A DNA stretch of 64,000 nt from Pedobacter deserti (GTDB lineage: Bacteria > Bacteroidota > Bacteroidia > Sphingobacteriales > Sphingobacteriaceae). Position numbers and translations under genes: made by a program. The stretch spans positions 2,418,001 through 2,482,000 of the forward strand of contig NZ_JAFMZQ010000001.1 of assembly GCF_024436415.1 (NCBI RefSeq). The letters are read 5' to 3'. Under the pieces are notes generated by a model that worked only from the letters and a program-made list of their open reading frames with translations, did no database searches and had not been told where the DNA came from. Below are positions 3,088 to 42,600 of this stretch, piece by piece (position 1 is the stretch's first letter; each line of letters starts with the position of its first letter).

Positions 3088-3161
3088 GCCTCGGTAGCTC
3101 AGCTGGATAGAGCAACGGTTTTCTAAACCGTGGGTCAGGAGTTCGAACCTCTTCCGGGGTA
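3088..3161 (+). tRNA. tRNA-Arg (anticodon TCT)
   Basis: A complete 74-nt cloverleaf can be folded by eye. The acceptor stem is GCCTCGG with CCGGGGT (with G-T pairs). The D arm is GCTC/GAGC. The anticodon stem ACGGT/ACCGT encloses loop TTTCTAA with anticodon TCT, reading AGA. The T stem AGGAG/CTCTT has the loop TTCGAAC. A73 is the discriminator and CCA is not encoded. A perfect promoter lies upstream and a hairpin terminator follows directly. The recombinase remnant ends against its 3' end, so this gene is the probable integration site of a lost element. Confidence 0.95.
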
Positions 3162-39275: not shown

Positions 39276-40274
39276 TTGAACACCAAATCGAGAACATTGC
39301 ATCCTAGAAAGACAGCCATTCTTATTGCCTTGTCCATCAGTGTTTTACTGATGCTGGCCAAGTTTGGGGCCTATCTGATCACGCATTCCAATGCCATTCT
39401 TACAGATGCAGCCGAAAGCATCGTCAATGTCATCGCCAGTGCCTTCGCTTTTTACAGCATCTATCTCGCCACCAGACCAAAAGATAACAACCACCCGTAT
39501 GGCCACGGCAAAATTGAATTTTTCTCAGCCTTTCTGGAAGGCGTGCTTATTACCGCGGCCGGTGTCATTATTTTGCTTAAATCGGGGGCCGATCTGATCT
39601 ATCCGAAAACACTGGAAAACCTGCTGGAGGGTGCGATCATTATCGGAGCTACTGGTATCATCAATCTGTTTACCGGCCTATATCTGATCAAAGCAGGAAA
39701 AACACACAGGTCCATTACCCTCGAAGCAGACGGCAAACACCTTTTTACGGATGCCATAACCAGCGCGGGACTTGTCGGCGGAATCATATTGATCAAGGTT
39801 ACGGGACTAACATGGCTGGATTCCGTGATATCTATTTTGCTTGCCGGTTATATCATTCATAACGGTTACAAACTTATCCGCCGTTCTGTCGGCGGCCTTA
39901 TGGACGAGAGTAACCAGGAAGTTGTCAAAGATGTTATCGCTATTCTGCAGCATAACAGGCGCGATCCCTGGATCGATATACACAATCTGAGGGCGCAGCA
40001 GTATGGCGCCGATCTGCATATCGACTGCCATATTACATTGCCTTATTATTTTGAGCTCACACAGGTTCACCGCGAGATATCCGAGATAGATCAGACCATC
40101 AACGGCACCGCGCCGCACAAGACCGAGCTGTTTATACACGCCGATCCTTGTCTGCCTGAGTGCTGCCATTACTGCCATATGAAGGAATGTCCGGTACGCC
40201 GCGAGCCCTTCCGCGAGGAGATTGTATGGACCATTGAGAATGCTACCAAGAACCAAAAACATTTTGATCAATGA
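39276..40274 (+). CDS. Cation diffusion facilitator (CDF) metal transporter
   Basis: This is a 332-residue protein with six membrane segments. The CDF metal-binding motifs are LTDAAES in helix 2, HPYGHGKIE between helices 2 and 3, and HLFTDA in helix 5. After the cytoplasmic domain comes a Cys/His-rich tail (HADPCLPECCHYCHMKEC) that is likely to bind Zn(II) or a similar ion. The start is uncertain. The frame opens with a TTG at 39276, but TATTTTTG at 39271-39278 is an exact -7 box over that codon. The in-frame TTG at 39297 may then be the true start; no in-frame ATG is near. The NUDIX gene overlaps its end by 4 bp. Confidence 0.9.
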   Translation: MNTKSRTLHPRKTAILIALSISVLLMLAKFGAYLITHSNAILTDAAESIVNVIASAFAFYSIYLATRPKDNNHPYGHGKIEFFSAFLEGVLITAAGVIILLKSGADLIYPKTLENLLEGAIIIGATGIINLFTGLYLIKAGKTHRSITLEADGKHLFTDAITSAGLVGGIILIKVTGLTWLDSVISILLAGYIIHNGYKLIRRSVGGLMDESNQEVVKDVIAILQHNRRDPWIDIHNLRAQQYGADLHIDCHITLPYYFELTQVHREISEIDQTINGTAPHKTELFIHADPCLPECCHYCHMKECPVRREPFREEIVWTIENATKNQKHFDQ

Positions 40275-40747
40275 GTTACTTTAACGTACGGGTATATGGC
40301 GTGCTGATCAACGAGGAGAATCAGGTTCTGATCAGCGACGAGCAGTCGGGCGACCGGACCTTCAGTAAGTTCCCCGGCGGTGGCGTAGAACTTGGAGAAG
40401 GTCTTCTGGAAGCGCTTAAGCGGGAATTTATAGAGGAATGCGAAGTTGAGGTAGAAGTGCTTAGCCACCTGTATACCACCGATTTTTACGAGAAGTCGTC
40501 ATTCAACGACAGCCAGATCCTGAGTATCTATTACCTGGTAAAACCTGTTACACCGCTCAACCTTTCCTTTAAGACCCAGGTGTACGATTTCGACGAAGGA
40601 AAGCTGCAATCCTTCAGATGGGTTGCCCTGGAGAAGCTGAGCACCAGCGATGTAACATTCCGTACCGATCAGCGCGTTGTCGAGGTCATACTAATGCAGA
40701 ACGAACAAATAAAAAATACCCTACATGAATTTAACCGAAAGGGATAG
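40271..40747 (+). CDS. NUDIX hydrolase
   Basis: This 158-residue protein has a complete NUDIX box: GGGVELGEGLLEALKREFIEECEV, i.e. G-x5-E-x7-RE-x2-EE (about residues 36-59). It hydrolyses a nucleoside diphosphate linked to another group; the substrate is not predictable. It overlaps the CDF gene by 4 bp (ATGA) and its last 23 bp lie within bioA, so the three genes are translationally coupled. Confidence 0.92.
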   Translation: MSYFNVRVYGVLINEENQVLISDEQSGDRTFSKFPGGGVELGEGLLEALKREFIEECEVEVEVLSHLYTTDFYEKSSFNDSQILSIYYLVKPVTPLNLSFKTQVYDFDEGKLQSFRWVALEKLSTSDVTFRTDQRVVEVILMQNEQIKNTLHEFNRKG

Positions 40748-42002
40748 TAAAGTTATCTGGCATCCCTACACTCAAATGAAGGATGCACTGCCGCATATCG
40801 GCATTGTACGTGGCGAAGGATGCTATTTATACGATGATGCGGGGCAACGCTATATCGACGCGGTTTCCAGCTGGTGGGTGAATATTCACGGTCACGCACA
40901 CCCGCACATCGCGGCTAAAGTGGCCGAACAGCTTAGAACGCTCGAACATGTGATCTTCGCTGGATTCACCCATGAGTCGGCAGTACAGTTAGCCGAACGG
41001 CTCCTGCCGCTGCTGCCAGGCCGGCAGGAGAAGGTATTTTACAGCGACAATGGTTCTACAGCTGTGGAAGTCGCCCTGAAAATGTGCCTTCAGTATTGGG
41101 TGAACGGGGGCAAGCCACGCACTAAAATACTTGCATTTCGGGAAGCATATCATGGCGACACCTTCGGTGCTATGTCTGTAAGCGGACGCAGTATGTTTAC
41201 CGAGCCATTTAATTCCCTGTTGTTTGATGTAGAGTTCCTGGATTTGCCTAGCGCAGCAAATATCAGCCAGCTAAGATCTCGAATCAATTACCTGTCGAAC
41301 GAAGTTGCCTGTTTTATCTTTGAACCCATGGTATTGGGAACGGCAGGCATGCGTATGTACGACGCGGCCTATCTTGATGCGCTGATCGAAAGCTGCCAGT
41401 CGCACGGTATTTTAACCATAGCCGATGAAGTAATGACTGGTTTTGGTCGCACAGGCAAATACTTCTCCTGCGAGGCCTTAAAAACCGCGCCCGATATATA
41501 TTGCCTTTCCAAAGGGCTTACTGGAGGTACGATGCCGATGGGTATTACGACCTGCAACGACAAGATATATCAGGCCTTTTACAGCACCGATAAGCTTAAA
41601 ACGCTGTATCATGGCCATTCCTTTACGGCCAACCCGGTCGCCTGCGCGGCTTCACTGGCCAGCCTGGATATCCTCGAGCGGGAGGAAACCATGGACAACA
41701 TCAGACGGATCGAGAAACAGCATAGCCAGTTTGCCGCCAAAATAGCGGGTCATCCCAAATTGAAAGACGTACGCCAGGCGGGAACTATACTGGCTATAGA
41801 ATGGGAGGCAGGGGAAGATGCATCTTACCTCAGCGGACTACGCAATCGGCTCTATAATTTCTTCCTCGAACGTGGAATTATCATGAGGCCCCTGGGAAAT
41901 ATCATTTATATTTTACCGCCTTATGTCATCAGTAACGACGATCTGGACTATATTTACAGCGCAATATCAGCAGCATTAACAGAAATTGACTATGCAAATT
42001 AA
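40725..42002 (+). CDS. bioA: Adenosylmethionine-8-amino-7-oxononanoate aminotransferase
   Basis: This 425-residue PLP enzyme makes 7,8-diaminopelargonate, the antepenultimate step of biotin synthesis, using SAM as amino donor. Typical segments are WHPYTQMKDALP at the N-terminus, SSWWVNIHGHAHP, FADEV-like IADEVMTGFGRTG, and the cofactor lysine in CLSKGLTGGTMPMG (about residue 268). GHSFTANPVACA also fits. No other biotin gene lies in the window. It overlaps both neighbours. Confidence 0.94.
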   Translation: MNLTERDSKVIWHPYTQMKDALPHIGIVRGEGCYLYDDAGQRYIDAVSSWWVNIHGHAHPHIAAKVAEQLRTLEHVIFAGFTHESAVQLAERLLPLLPGRQEKVFYSDNGSTAVEVALKMCLQYWVNGGKPRTKILAFREAYHGDTFGAMSVSGRSMFTEPFNSLLFDVEFLDLPSAANISQLRSRINYLSNEVACFIFEPMVLGTAGMRMYDAAYLDALIESCQSHGILTIADEVMTGFGRTGKYFSCEALKTAPDIYCLSKGLTGGTMPMGITTCNDKIYQAFYSTDKLKTLYHGHSFTANPVACAASLASLDILEREETMDNIRRIEKQHSQFAAKIAGHPKLKDVRQAGTILAIEWEAGEDASYLSGLRNRLYNFFLERGIIMRPLGNIIYILPPYVISNDDLDYIYSAISAALTEIDYAN

Positions 42003-42600
42003 ACCCATACTGGAACATATAGTGAACGATAACCTTTTGCATGCCAAATGGTTAAATACCCTTTCATTCATGGAAAATGCAGGTGCAAAAAAGATTTCCG
42101 CATCTGAGCACAAGGAAAGCGTGCATCTCATTATCCTCAAGCATGCCGCAGAGGAGCACAGGCATGCTTACTATCTTAAAAAACAAATAGACAAACTGGG
42201 TGCAAATCTCTTTCAGACCTATACCAACGAAGAATTGCTCACACCAGATCATACCAAATACTATCTCAACGCGCTTGATATTGCCGCTTGTCGTTACCTG
42301 AAAAAGGAGTTCAACCTAAGCGGCTACGAGTTAAAGTTTGCCGCCTATCTTTTTGTAACCTATGTGATCGAAGTAAGGGCAGACGAACTGTATCCCATCT
42401 ATCAGGAAGTGCTCAGCAACGCAAAAAGCAGGGTAAACGTTAAGTCGATTATCCTTGAAGAAGAAGGTCACCTGGAAGAAATGATCAAACAACTGGAAGA
42501 ATTCTCACCAGAATGGCAAAAGCATGCAGCAGAGATCATTCGCATAGAACAGGAAATGTTCGAAGGCTGGATGAGCAACCTTGGCCGACAGATCGCTTAG
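41992..42600 (+). CDS. Ferritin-like (diiron-type) protein coupled to bioA
   Basis: This 202-residue helical protein carries two Glu-x-x-His motifs, EHRH (in AAEEHRHAYYLKK) and EEGH (in ILEEEGHLEEM). Further glutamates sit in SEHKESVH and VTYVIEVRADELYPIY, so it has the ligand set of a ferritin-like four-helix diiron protein. I do not recognise a named family. The ATG at 41992 lies inside the last codons of bioA (11-bp overlap), so translation is coupled; a TTG two codons earlier is also in frame. A role connected with biotin or pimelate supply is an inference from context only. It ends overlapping the convergent pdeM stop by 4 bp. Confidence 0.65.
   Translation: MQIKPILEHIVNDNLLHAKWLNTLSFMENAGAKKISASEHKESVHLIILKHAAEEHRHAYYLKKQIDKLGANLFQTYTNEELLTPDHTKYYLNALDIAACRYLKKEFNLSGYELKFAAYLFVTYVIEVRADELYPIYQEVLSNAKSRVNVKSIILEEEGHLEEMIKQLEEFSPEWQKHAAEIIRIEQEMFEGWMSNLGRQIA

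Follow-up and report, generated by a model that had tools for sequence, protein, structure and literature searches.

The gene that closes a run of overlapping reading frames behind bioA in Pedobacter deserti encodes a protein for which Pfam, NCBIfam and PDB sequence searches returned no credible match, and the question raised by this locus is what such a protein does beside a biotin gene. The window, i.e., the whole 64,000-nucleotide stretch that was analysed, presents the run as follows:

39276..40274, + strand, cation-efflux (CDF-type) transporter gene, an ORF that heads the string of overlapping genes
40271..40747, + strand, NUDIX hydrolase gene (Pfam NUDIX, 52.6 bits against a cut-off of 21.1)
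40725..42002, + strand, bioA, adenosylmethionine--8-amino-7-oxononanoate transaminase (TIGR00508, 558.5 bits against a cut-off of 405)
41992..42600, + strand, very probable bioE ortholog encoding a 202-aa ferritin-like diiron protein (translation, ligands and predicted fold)

The NUDIX gene, bioA and the ferritin-like protein were all recovered where the original prediction had placed them. The CDF-type label is a presumption from the sequence; this first gene shares 4 nt with the start of the NUDIX gene, which in turn runs 23 nt into bioA, an overlap that had been predicted. For the last gene the ATG at 41992 is preferred to the TTG at 41986 given in the ORF list, which is the less likely start because the ATGs of the relatives align with 41992. 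The next gene downstream is convergent, while bioF and bioD, the latter directly behind the former, lie about 0.5 Mb away from the bioA-bioE pair in the P. deserti genome.

A candidate function comes from BioE, an iron enzyme that cleaves long fatty-acid chains to yield the starting piece of biotin (PMC12915131, which cites as the first report on BioE a PNAS article of 2025, doi 10.1073/pnas.2501226122). Its chemistry was shown for the enzymes of Elizabethkingia meningoseptica (EmBioE) and Chlamydia psittaci (CpBioE): BioE cuts long-chain acyl-ACP/CoA at C7-C8, rescues an E. coli bioH/bioC deletion, contains about two iron atoms per monomer and displays a band near 335 nm (PMC12915131). The window protein is very probably a BioE ortholog, that is, a ferritin-like diiron oxygenase making a biotin precursor, and the assignment is based on the match of ligands and pocket, the predicted fold, the co-occurrence with biotin genes and the cluster membership in relatives. 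The diiron ligands of EmBioE are E26, E53, H56, E125, E155 and H158 (PMC12915131), and all six have a counterpart in the window protein, at a constant offset of +2 from EmBioE and -13 from CpBioE:

42073-42075, + strand, predicted ligand E28, invariant in the alignment; EmBioE E26
42154-42156, + strand, predicted ligand E55, invariant in the alignment; EmBioE E53
42163-42165, + strand, predicted ligand H58, invariant in the alignment; EmBioE H56
42370-42372, + strand, predicted ligand E127, invariant in the alignment; EmBioE E125
42460-42462, + strand, predicted ligand E157, invariant in the alignment; EmBioE E155
42469-42471, + strand, predicted ligand H160, invariant in the alignment; EmBioE H158

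The alignment consists of the window protein and 36 of the 80 fetched homologs, and the two Glu-x-x-His motifs, E55-x-x-H58 and E157-x-x-H160, are conserved in 37/37 sequences, as are the partner glutamates E28 and E127. The motifs noticed in the original prediction are thus real, and conservation extends to all of the putative iron ligands. The acyl pocket tells the same story: the hydrophobic residues L22, Y117, I124 and L131 of EmBioE (PMC12915131) are identical in 4/4 cases, and those of CpBioE (W33, L37, L40, I48, L105, V135, I139, L146, Y147, Y150 and L205; PMC12915131) in 9/11, the mismatches being M27 for L40 and G192 for L205, the latter read by plain offset without alignment. The match to both enzymes is by published residue numbers and gene context rather than by sequence identity to a proven BioE; the search rule used in PMC12915131 is >40% identity over 85% of EmBioE.

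The AlphaFold2 model of the protein (pLDDT 91.0) is a four-helix bundle, and among the families listed by the structural aligner it is closest to an aldehyde deformylating oxygenase (PDB 5ux1 and others, Z 16.5, rmsd 2.5 over 172, 17% identity) and MiaE (PDB 8afj, Z 15.8, rmsd 2.6 over 171), values to be read with the caveat that helical bundles reach middling Z by chance. Foldseek with the predicted model gave nothing at E<=0.001. Pfam includes models for the aldehyde deformylating oxygenase and MiaE families, and both were absent among the Pfam matches at E<=1, where COQ7 scored 11.6 bits, below its cut-off of 23.5, and the remaining matches were to families other than diiron oxygenases.

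The co-occurrence of the protein with the biotin pathway was surveyed in 131 genomes drawn from the window's family, each at least 95% complete, whose family and genus were inferred from named homolog records. Full-length BioE is present in 74 of them, and the contrast between these and the remaining 57 is sharp for bioF (74/74 against 16/57), bioA (74/74 against 16/57) and bioB (73/74 against 22/57), with a Fisher p of 3.4e-21 for the BioE-bioF association, a value that overstates it because the surveyed genomes are related. Within the window's genus (21 genomes drawn), 14 have BioE, bioF, bioA and bioB together and the other 7 lack all four. Because TIGR00858 could not separate BioF from its relatives (131/131 genomes matched, 0 above the cut-off), BioF was counted instead with a profile built from seven BioF proteins whose genes stand in bio clusters or immediately follow bioE, used at E<=1e-90; four of the seven come from genomes in the searched set, and the profile matched 90 genomes, exactly once in each. 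Genome G265, in which a truncated BioE (residues 1-55) and a bioB fragment lie within one open frame, was counted as BioE-negative in the co-occurrence figures and as BioE-positive in those on linkage to bioA.

No BioW was found in any of the 131 genomes at E<=1e-5, and no BioC (TIGR02072) above the curated cut-off, a strict one that only 1 of 14 control genomes passes; since all 131 genomes have matches below it, the absence of BioC means none above this cut-off. The expectation that genomes of this kind lack bioC-type genes therefore holds for the family draw in these terms. Together with the invariant ligands, the presence of bioF and bioA in every BioE genome and the identical ligand spacing of published BioE, this supports the earlier idea that a diiron oxygenase supplies pimelate, which is already in print for BioE (PMC12915131).

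The arrangement of the bioA-bioE junction was read in relatives, for which a homolog search confirmed 439 and the best 80 of these were retained. At 45 of these best 80 loci bioA lies directly upstream with a gap of at most 232 nt; the distance from the bioA stop to the bioE ATG is 1-7 nt in 36 of the 45 and 78-232 nt in the other nine, and the two genes overlap in none. The start of the protein inside the end of bioA, as predicted, is thus correct for the window, with 11 nt shared, and does not extend to the 45 bioA-linked relatives: the overlap is a quirk of the P. deserti genome and tight abutment is the conserved trait. The stop position of the relatives reads GAC in the window, and consequently bioA is longer by four codons. 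The neighbourhood itself is conserved far above chance, and conservation of the pair, as originally proposed, is borne out in part, with bioA immediately upstream in 46 of the 74 genomes with full-length BioE and not in the others.

The linkage is lost in 14 of the 74, and this, together with an aldehyde deformylating oxygenase being the closest structural neighbour, is what could be expected of a BioE-family diiron oxygenase turned to another acyl-chain reaction (e.g., aldehyde deformylation or desaturation) whose position beside bioA is historical. However, the 14 unlinked genomes still retain bioA, bioF and bioB, the protein keeps every catalytic ligand and almost every pocket residue published for BioE, and the 7/7 drawn genus genomes without biotin genes are also without BioE, so that a shifted reaction appears highly improbable.

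The overlap of the NUDIX gene, bioA and bioE invites a further explanation, in which the diiron protein, with the NUDIX hydrolase, handles a by-product of the use of SAM by BioA or protects BioA/BioB. The loci of the relatives speak against it. NUDIX lies beside bioA, or one gene off, at five of nine examined bioA loci without BioE (L122, L128, L130, L134, with one gene between, and L135), whereas it is absent from the examined flank of 34 of the best 80 bioE loci, where bioA is missing too; NUDIX thus tracks bioA rather than bioE, and a part for it beside the diiron protein is not upheld. Furthermore, 15 genomes have bioF, bioA and bioB without bioE, clustered bioE directly precedes bioF rather than bioA, and nothing was found in favour of SAM by-product handling, which is accordingly very improbable. 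Just as unlikely is a ferritin-type iron-storage or peroxide-scavenging bacterioferritin-like protein, as the helical bundle and the two Glu-x-x-His motifs might suggest, given the retained hydrophobic acyl-channel residues, the strict co-occurrence with biotin genes and the lack of any ferritin or rubrerythrin match at E<=1 in Pfam and NCBIfam except EncB ferritin-like, which reached E 0.22 and 11.5 bits where the cut-off is 90.

Of the other neighbours, cluster 4, the gene upstream of NUDIX, is present at 45 of the best 80 loci, and a thioredoxin gene follows bioE at 36 of them. Thioredoxin as the electron donor is only a lead, because its distance from bioE varies between 18 and 3307 nt and bioE in the window is followed by a convergent gene.

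If the protein is BioE, as preferred here, its hydrophobic channel would take up a long acyl chain carried by ACP (or CoA), its two-iron site, formed by E28, E55, H58, E127, E157 and H160, would activate O2, and cleavage between C7 and C8 would yield a pimeloyl thioester. BioF would convert this product to KAPA and BioA KAPA to DAPA, and BioD and BioB would complete biotin. That the window protein performs the same reaction as proven BioE is by analogy, the chemistry itself coming from PMC12915131.

BioE would not be the sole feed of the pathway in the family, since bioF, bioA and bioB occur without BioE in 15 genomes of the draw, a departure from the published model. Loss of bioF as an explanation was rejected, because these 15 retain it along with bioA and bioB. 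No BioW was found in them, nor a divergent BioE at a loose E<=10, and the genes next to bioF included no obvious replacement (L117, L119, L120 and 12 of 13 further loci, the 13th being that of G309); in each of the 15 a bioD-like gene adjoins bioF or lies one gene off.

A second arrangement is found in 14 of the 74 BioE genomes, where the bioE ortholog leads a bioE-F-B-A cluster (order by coordinates), with the order bioE-F-D-B-A in the three clusters examined in full. Orthologs lie directly before bioF in G002, G302 and G295 and at 3/3 loci outside the family (L084, L085 and L086), and share 53-63% identity with the window protein across at least 98% of its length. A divergent BioL-like MocR gene, so called here by position and MocR domains without comparison to EmBioL, stands beside the cluster in 12 of the 14 genomes, and a MocR protein at least 45% identical to that of G002 occurs in 14/14 cluster-type genomes and in 0/60 of the other BioE genomes. 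The P. deserti genome has no close BioL: its two best MocR proteins, one of which carries an internal stop, share 35-36% identity with the BioL-like protein encoded beside the cluster of G002, and, as the label is by position and domains, a diverged BioL is possible.

Elizabethkingia needs the BioL repressor, and Chlamydia has BioE without BioL (PMC12915131), so that a missing BioL does not exclude BioE here. The 60 BioE genomes without a close BioL, P. deserti included, are another departure from the published model. It is conceivable, if somewhat doubtful, that most BioE genomes of the family (60/74 drawn) run the fatty-acid-consuming BioE free of BioL, with the dose held by translational coupling to bioA, by some other regulator, or through a milder enzyme like that of Chlamydia, for which overexpression is reported to carry no growth cost. 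The tight coupling in P. deserti may help to set the BioE dose, replacing the BioL repressor of the relatives. Were this so, free-living bacteria would have a second form of regulation for the BioE pathway, one that does without BioL.

This assignment gives a protein that is unmatched in Pfam and NCBIfam a place in biotin synthesis, where it likely takes the first committed step in many relatives of Pedobacter and Mucilaginibacter, and a reading of raw sequence and an independent survey back a pathway that was not in print before 2025. The family also offers natural contrasts for testing, namely BioE with and without BioL, and a late pathway without a known pimeloyl source. No paper linking BioE, biotin and Pedobacter was found in the open-licence PMC literature.

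Among known systems, MiaE, whose substrate is tRNA, shares the fold with the window protein and differs from it in having no biotin context, and its family was absent among the Pfam matches of the window protein at E<=1. The cyanobacterial aldehyde deformylating oxygenase is alike in fold (Z 16.5), and the diiron centre of BioE has been called analogous to its own, but its substrates are fatty aldehydes, while the cut made by BioE lies within an acyl-ACP chain (PMC12915131). BioI of Bacillus subtilis likewise takes long acyl-ACP to pimeloyl-ACP, although it is a haem enzyme (P450) of another family (PMC12915131). The nearest likeness is to the BioE of E. meningoseptica and C. psittaci, in the six ligands at the same spacing, the pocket and the bioF/D/B/A context of the relatives, and the published distribution of BioE includes Sphingobacteriaceae (PMC12915131), like P. 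deserti. Unlike the published bioE, which leads bioEFD, the putative bioE of P. deserti is coupled to bioA, among dispersed biotin genes and with no close BioL.

Four plus-strand genes overlap head to tail at 39276-42600 of the window; coordinates and domain matches agree with the original prediction, in which a NUDIX gene, bioA and a diiron-type protein overlap:

39276-40274, plus strand: first gene of the string, which we take to be a cation-efflux gene of the CDF type
40271-40747, plus strand: NUDIX gene, domain certain
40725-42002, plus strand: bioA, certain (TIGR00508, 558.5 bits; cut-off 405)
41992-42600, plus strand: 202-residue protein, very probably a BioE ortholog, last gene of the string

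The 202-residue protein is matched once in its own 3.95 Mb genome at E ≤ 1, and its best-scoring named homologs are from Pedobacter. Pfam, NCBIfam and PDB sequence searches gave no credible match, nor was a Pfam match at E ≤ 0.01 found for the ortholog of genome G002. At the Rfam gathering threshold the window yields a single hit, a tRNA (3088-3161), and no riboswitch near bioA.

Residues E28, E55, H58, E127, E157 and H160 are the same in the window protein and in all 36 relatives aligned with it, which share 63-81% identity with it; the iron site supposed earlier is conserved at all six ligands. Such a ligand pattern is typical of ferritin-like diiron oxygenases. The AlphaFold2 model built from the 37 sequences is a confidently predicted helical bundle (pLDDT 91.0, pTM 0.87), whose closest solved structure is an aldehyde deformylating oxygenase (Z 16.5, rmsd 2.5 over 172 residues), followed by MiaE (Z 15.8, rmsd 2.6 over 171), with many folds of the same kind scoring below both; Foldseek alone gave no match to the model at E ≤ 0.001.

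The neighbours of the gene in related genomes, like the residue match described below, point to BioE. Genomes G002, G302 and G295 have an ortholog, sharing 53-63% identity with the window protein, that heads a bioE-bioF-bioD-bioB-bioA cluster (bioD named from its sequence) and is adjoined by a divergent MocR-type gene; at all three loci from beyond the family (L084, L085, L086) it immediately precedes bioF. Among 131 family genomes at least 95% complete, 74 encode full-length BioE; outside these, G265 retains a truncated copy (residues 1-55) that shares an open frame with a piece of bioB. By coordinates, bioE-bioF-bioB-bioA form a single cluster in 14 of the 74, bioA lies less than 400 bp upstream of bioE in 46, as in the window, and the two are unlinked in 14. 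The window's genome has bioB at C1:2667869 and bioF-bioD at C1:2969775.

All 74 BioE genomes carry bioF and bioA, and 73 carry bioB, the exception (G308) having a listed contamination of 7% and completeness of 96%. Of the 57 genomes without full-length BioE, 16 have bioF, 16 bioA and 22 bioB; 35 of the 131 have none of the four genes, and the window's genus (21 drawn genomes) divides into 14 with all four and 7 with none. Across the phylum, BioE occurs in 6 of 198 drawn genomes. We weighed co-occurrence by pattern rather than by Fisher p-values, because genome relatedness inflates the latter. BioW was found in none of the 131; the expectation that BioE genomes lack bioC holds insofar as none of the 131 has BioC above the curated cut-off, a strict one that only 1 of 14 control genomes passed.

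A functional part for the NUDIX gene with the diiron protein was not borne out. The gene is missing, with bioA likewise missing nearby, in 34 of the 80 bioE loci (the best 80 of 439 confirmed homologs), and it adjoins bioA, or lies one gene away (L134), in five of the nine BioE-less bioA loci examined. Locus L077 has NUDIX near bioE and bioA not nearby; there, as in six of the 34, bioA lies elsewhere in the genome (seven of seven tested). The NUDIX gene tracks bioA, and neither locus set gave a sign that it serves BioE. Separately, a thioredoxin-like gene, named from its sequence, lies 3' of bioE on the same strand in 36 of the 80 loci (e.g., L018, L028, L030), 18-3307 nt away; it is a possible BioE reductant, considered because PMC12915131 leaves electron transfer to BioE unresolved.

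Two observations do not fit the simple picture. The first is that 15 family genomes (G122, G201, G204, G211, G229, G237, G255, G261, G273, G278, G284, G289, G291, G293 and G304) have bioF, bioA and bioB without BioE. They show no BioW, no BioC above cut-off and no divergent BioE at a loose E ≤ 10, and three keep the CDF-NUDIX-bioA string (L122, L128, L135). They may draw pimeloyl from a different source, or bioE may be hidden in gaps of the assemblies. In G122, a 230-aa NUDIX-like protein (L117:9615-10307), a putative NrtR-type regulator, is encoded upstream of a bioB-F-D-A cluster that lacks bioE.

The second is that no close BioL, the MocR-type repressor of BioE in Elizabethkingia, was found where bioE stands apart from a biotin cluster. 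Full-length MocR proteins with 45% or more identity to the G002 BioL-like protein occur in all 14 cluster-type BioE genomes (adjacent and divergent in 12) and in none of the other 60, of which 16 have some MocR match at E ≤ 1e-30 (top full-length identity 41%) and one, G198, a 167-residue stretch at 48% identity interrupted by a stop. Because loss of BioL makes Elizabethkingia a biotin auxotroph, according to PMC12915131, BioL-free genomes must handle BioE otherwise. Tight abutment is one candidate: bioE starts 1-7 nt after bioA in 36 of 45 bioA-linked loci, but in 14 BioE genomes the two genes are not even linked.

BioL-like genes also stand beside other genes, and 19 drawn genomes have one without full-length BioE or bioB. 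In all five such genomes examined (L169 of G313, L170 of G280, L171 of G200, L172 of G256, L173 of G292), the MocR gene, whose product shares 50-52% identity with the G002 protein, lies divergently beside a gene for a TonB-dependent receptor; these receptors (48-82% identical mutually; Pfam check on two) are possibly BioL-controlled outer-membrane importers of biotin or a precursor. Elsewhere a MocR gene is divergent to a lone bioB (L125 of G223, L126 of G312, L127 of G315, L131 of G207), with 39-58% identity to the G002 protein (lowest in G315). Since bioB alone adjoins MocR and neither bioF nor bioA was found in these four genomes, dethiobiotin salvage is suggested.

The original prediction that the diiron protein might have a role in pimelate or KAPA supply has its answer already in print. 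As described in PMC12915131, which credits the first report to PNAS 2025, BioE is a diiron oxygenase with the six-ligand pattern of the ferritin-like enzymes; it cleaves long-chain acyl-ACP or acyl-CoA at C7-C8 to yield a pimeloyl precursor, is paired in Elizabethkingia with BioL, and has a distribution that includes the Sphingobacteriaceae. By published residue numbers rather than by the EmBioE sequence, ligands 26, 53, 56, 125, 155 and 158 of Elizabethkingia meningoseptica BioE (EmBioE) map onto the window protein with all numbers shifted by two, and the six of Chlamydia psittaci BioE (CpBioE) with all shifted by thirteen; of the published pocket positions, 4/4 of EmBioE and 9/11 of CpBioE are shared. 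The C7-C8 cleavage would carry over from these orthologs, which would make the window protein a further example of an already known kind of enzyme. The BioE-less genomes with bioF, bioA and bioB and the BioE genomes without a close BioL are the two points worth following. We conclude that the window protein is BioE, here coupled to bioA, with the other biotin genes dispersed and no close BioL, unlike the BioL-paired Elizabethkingia system.
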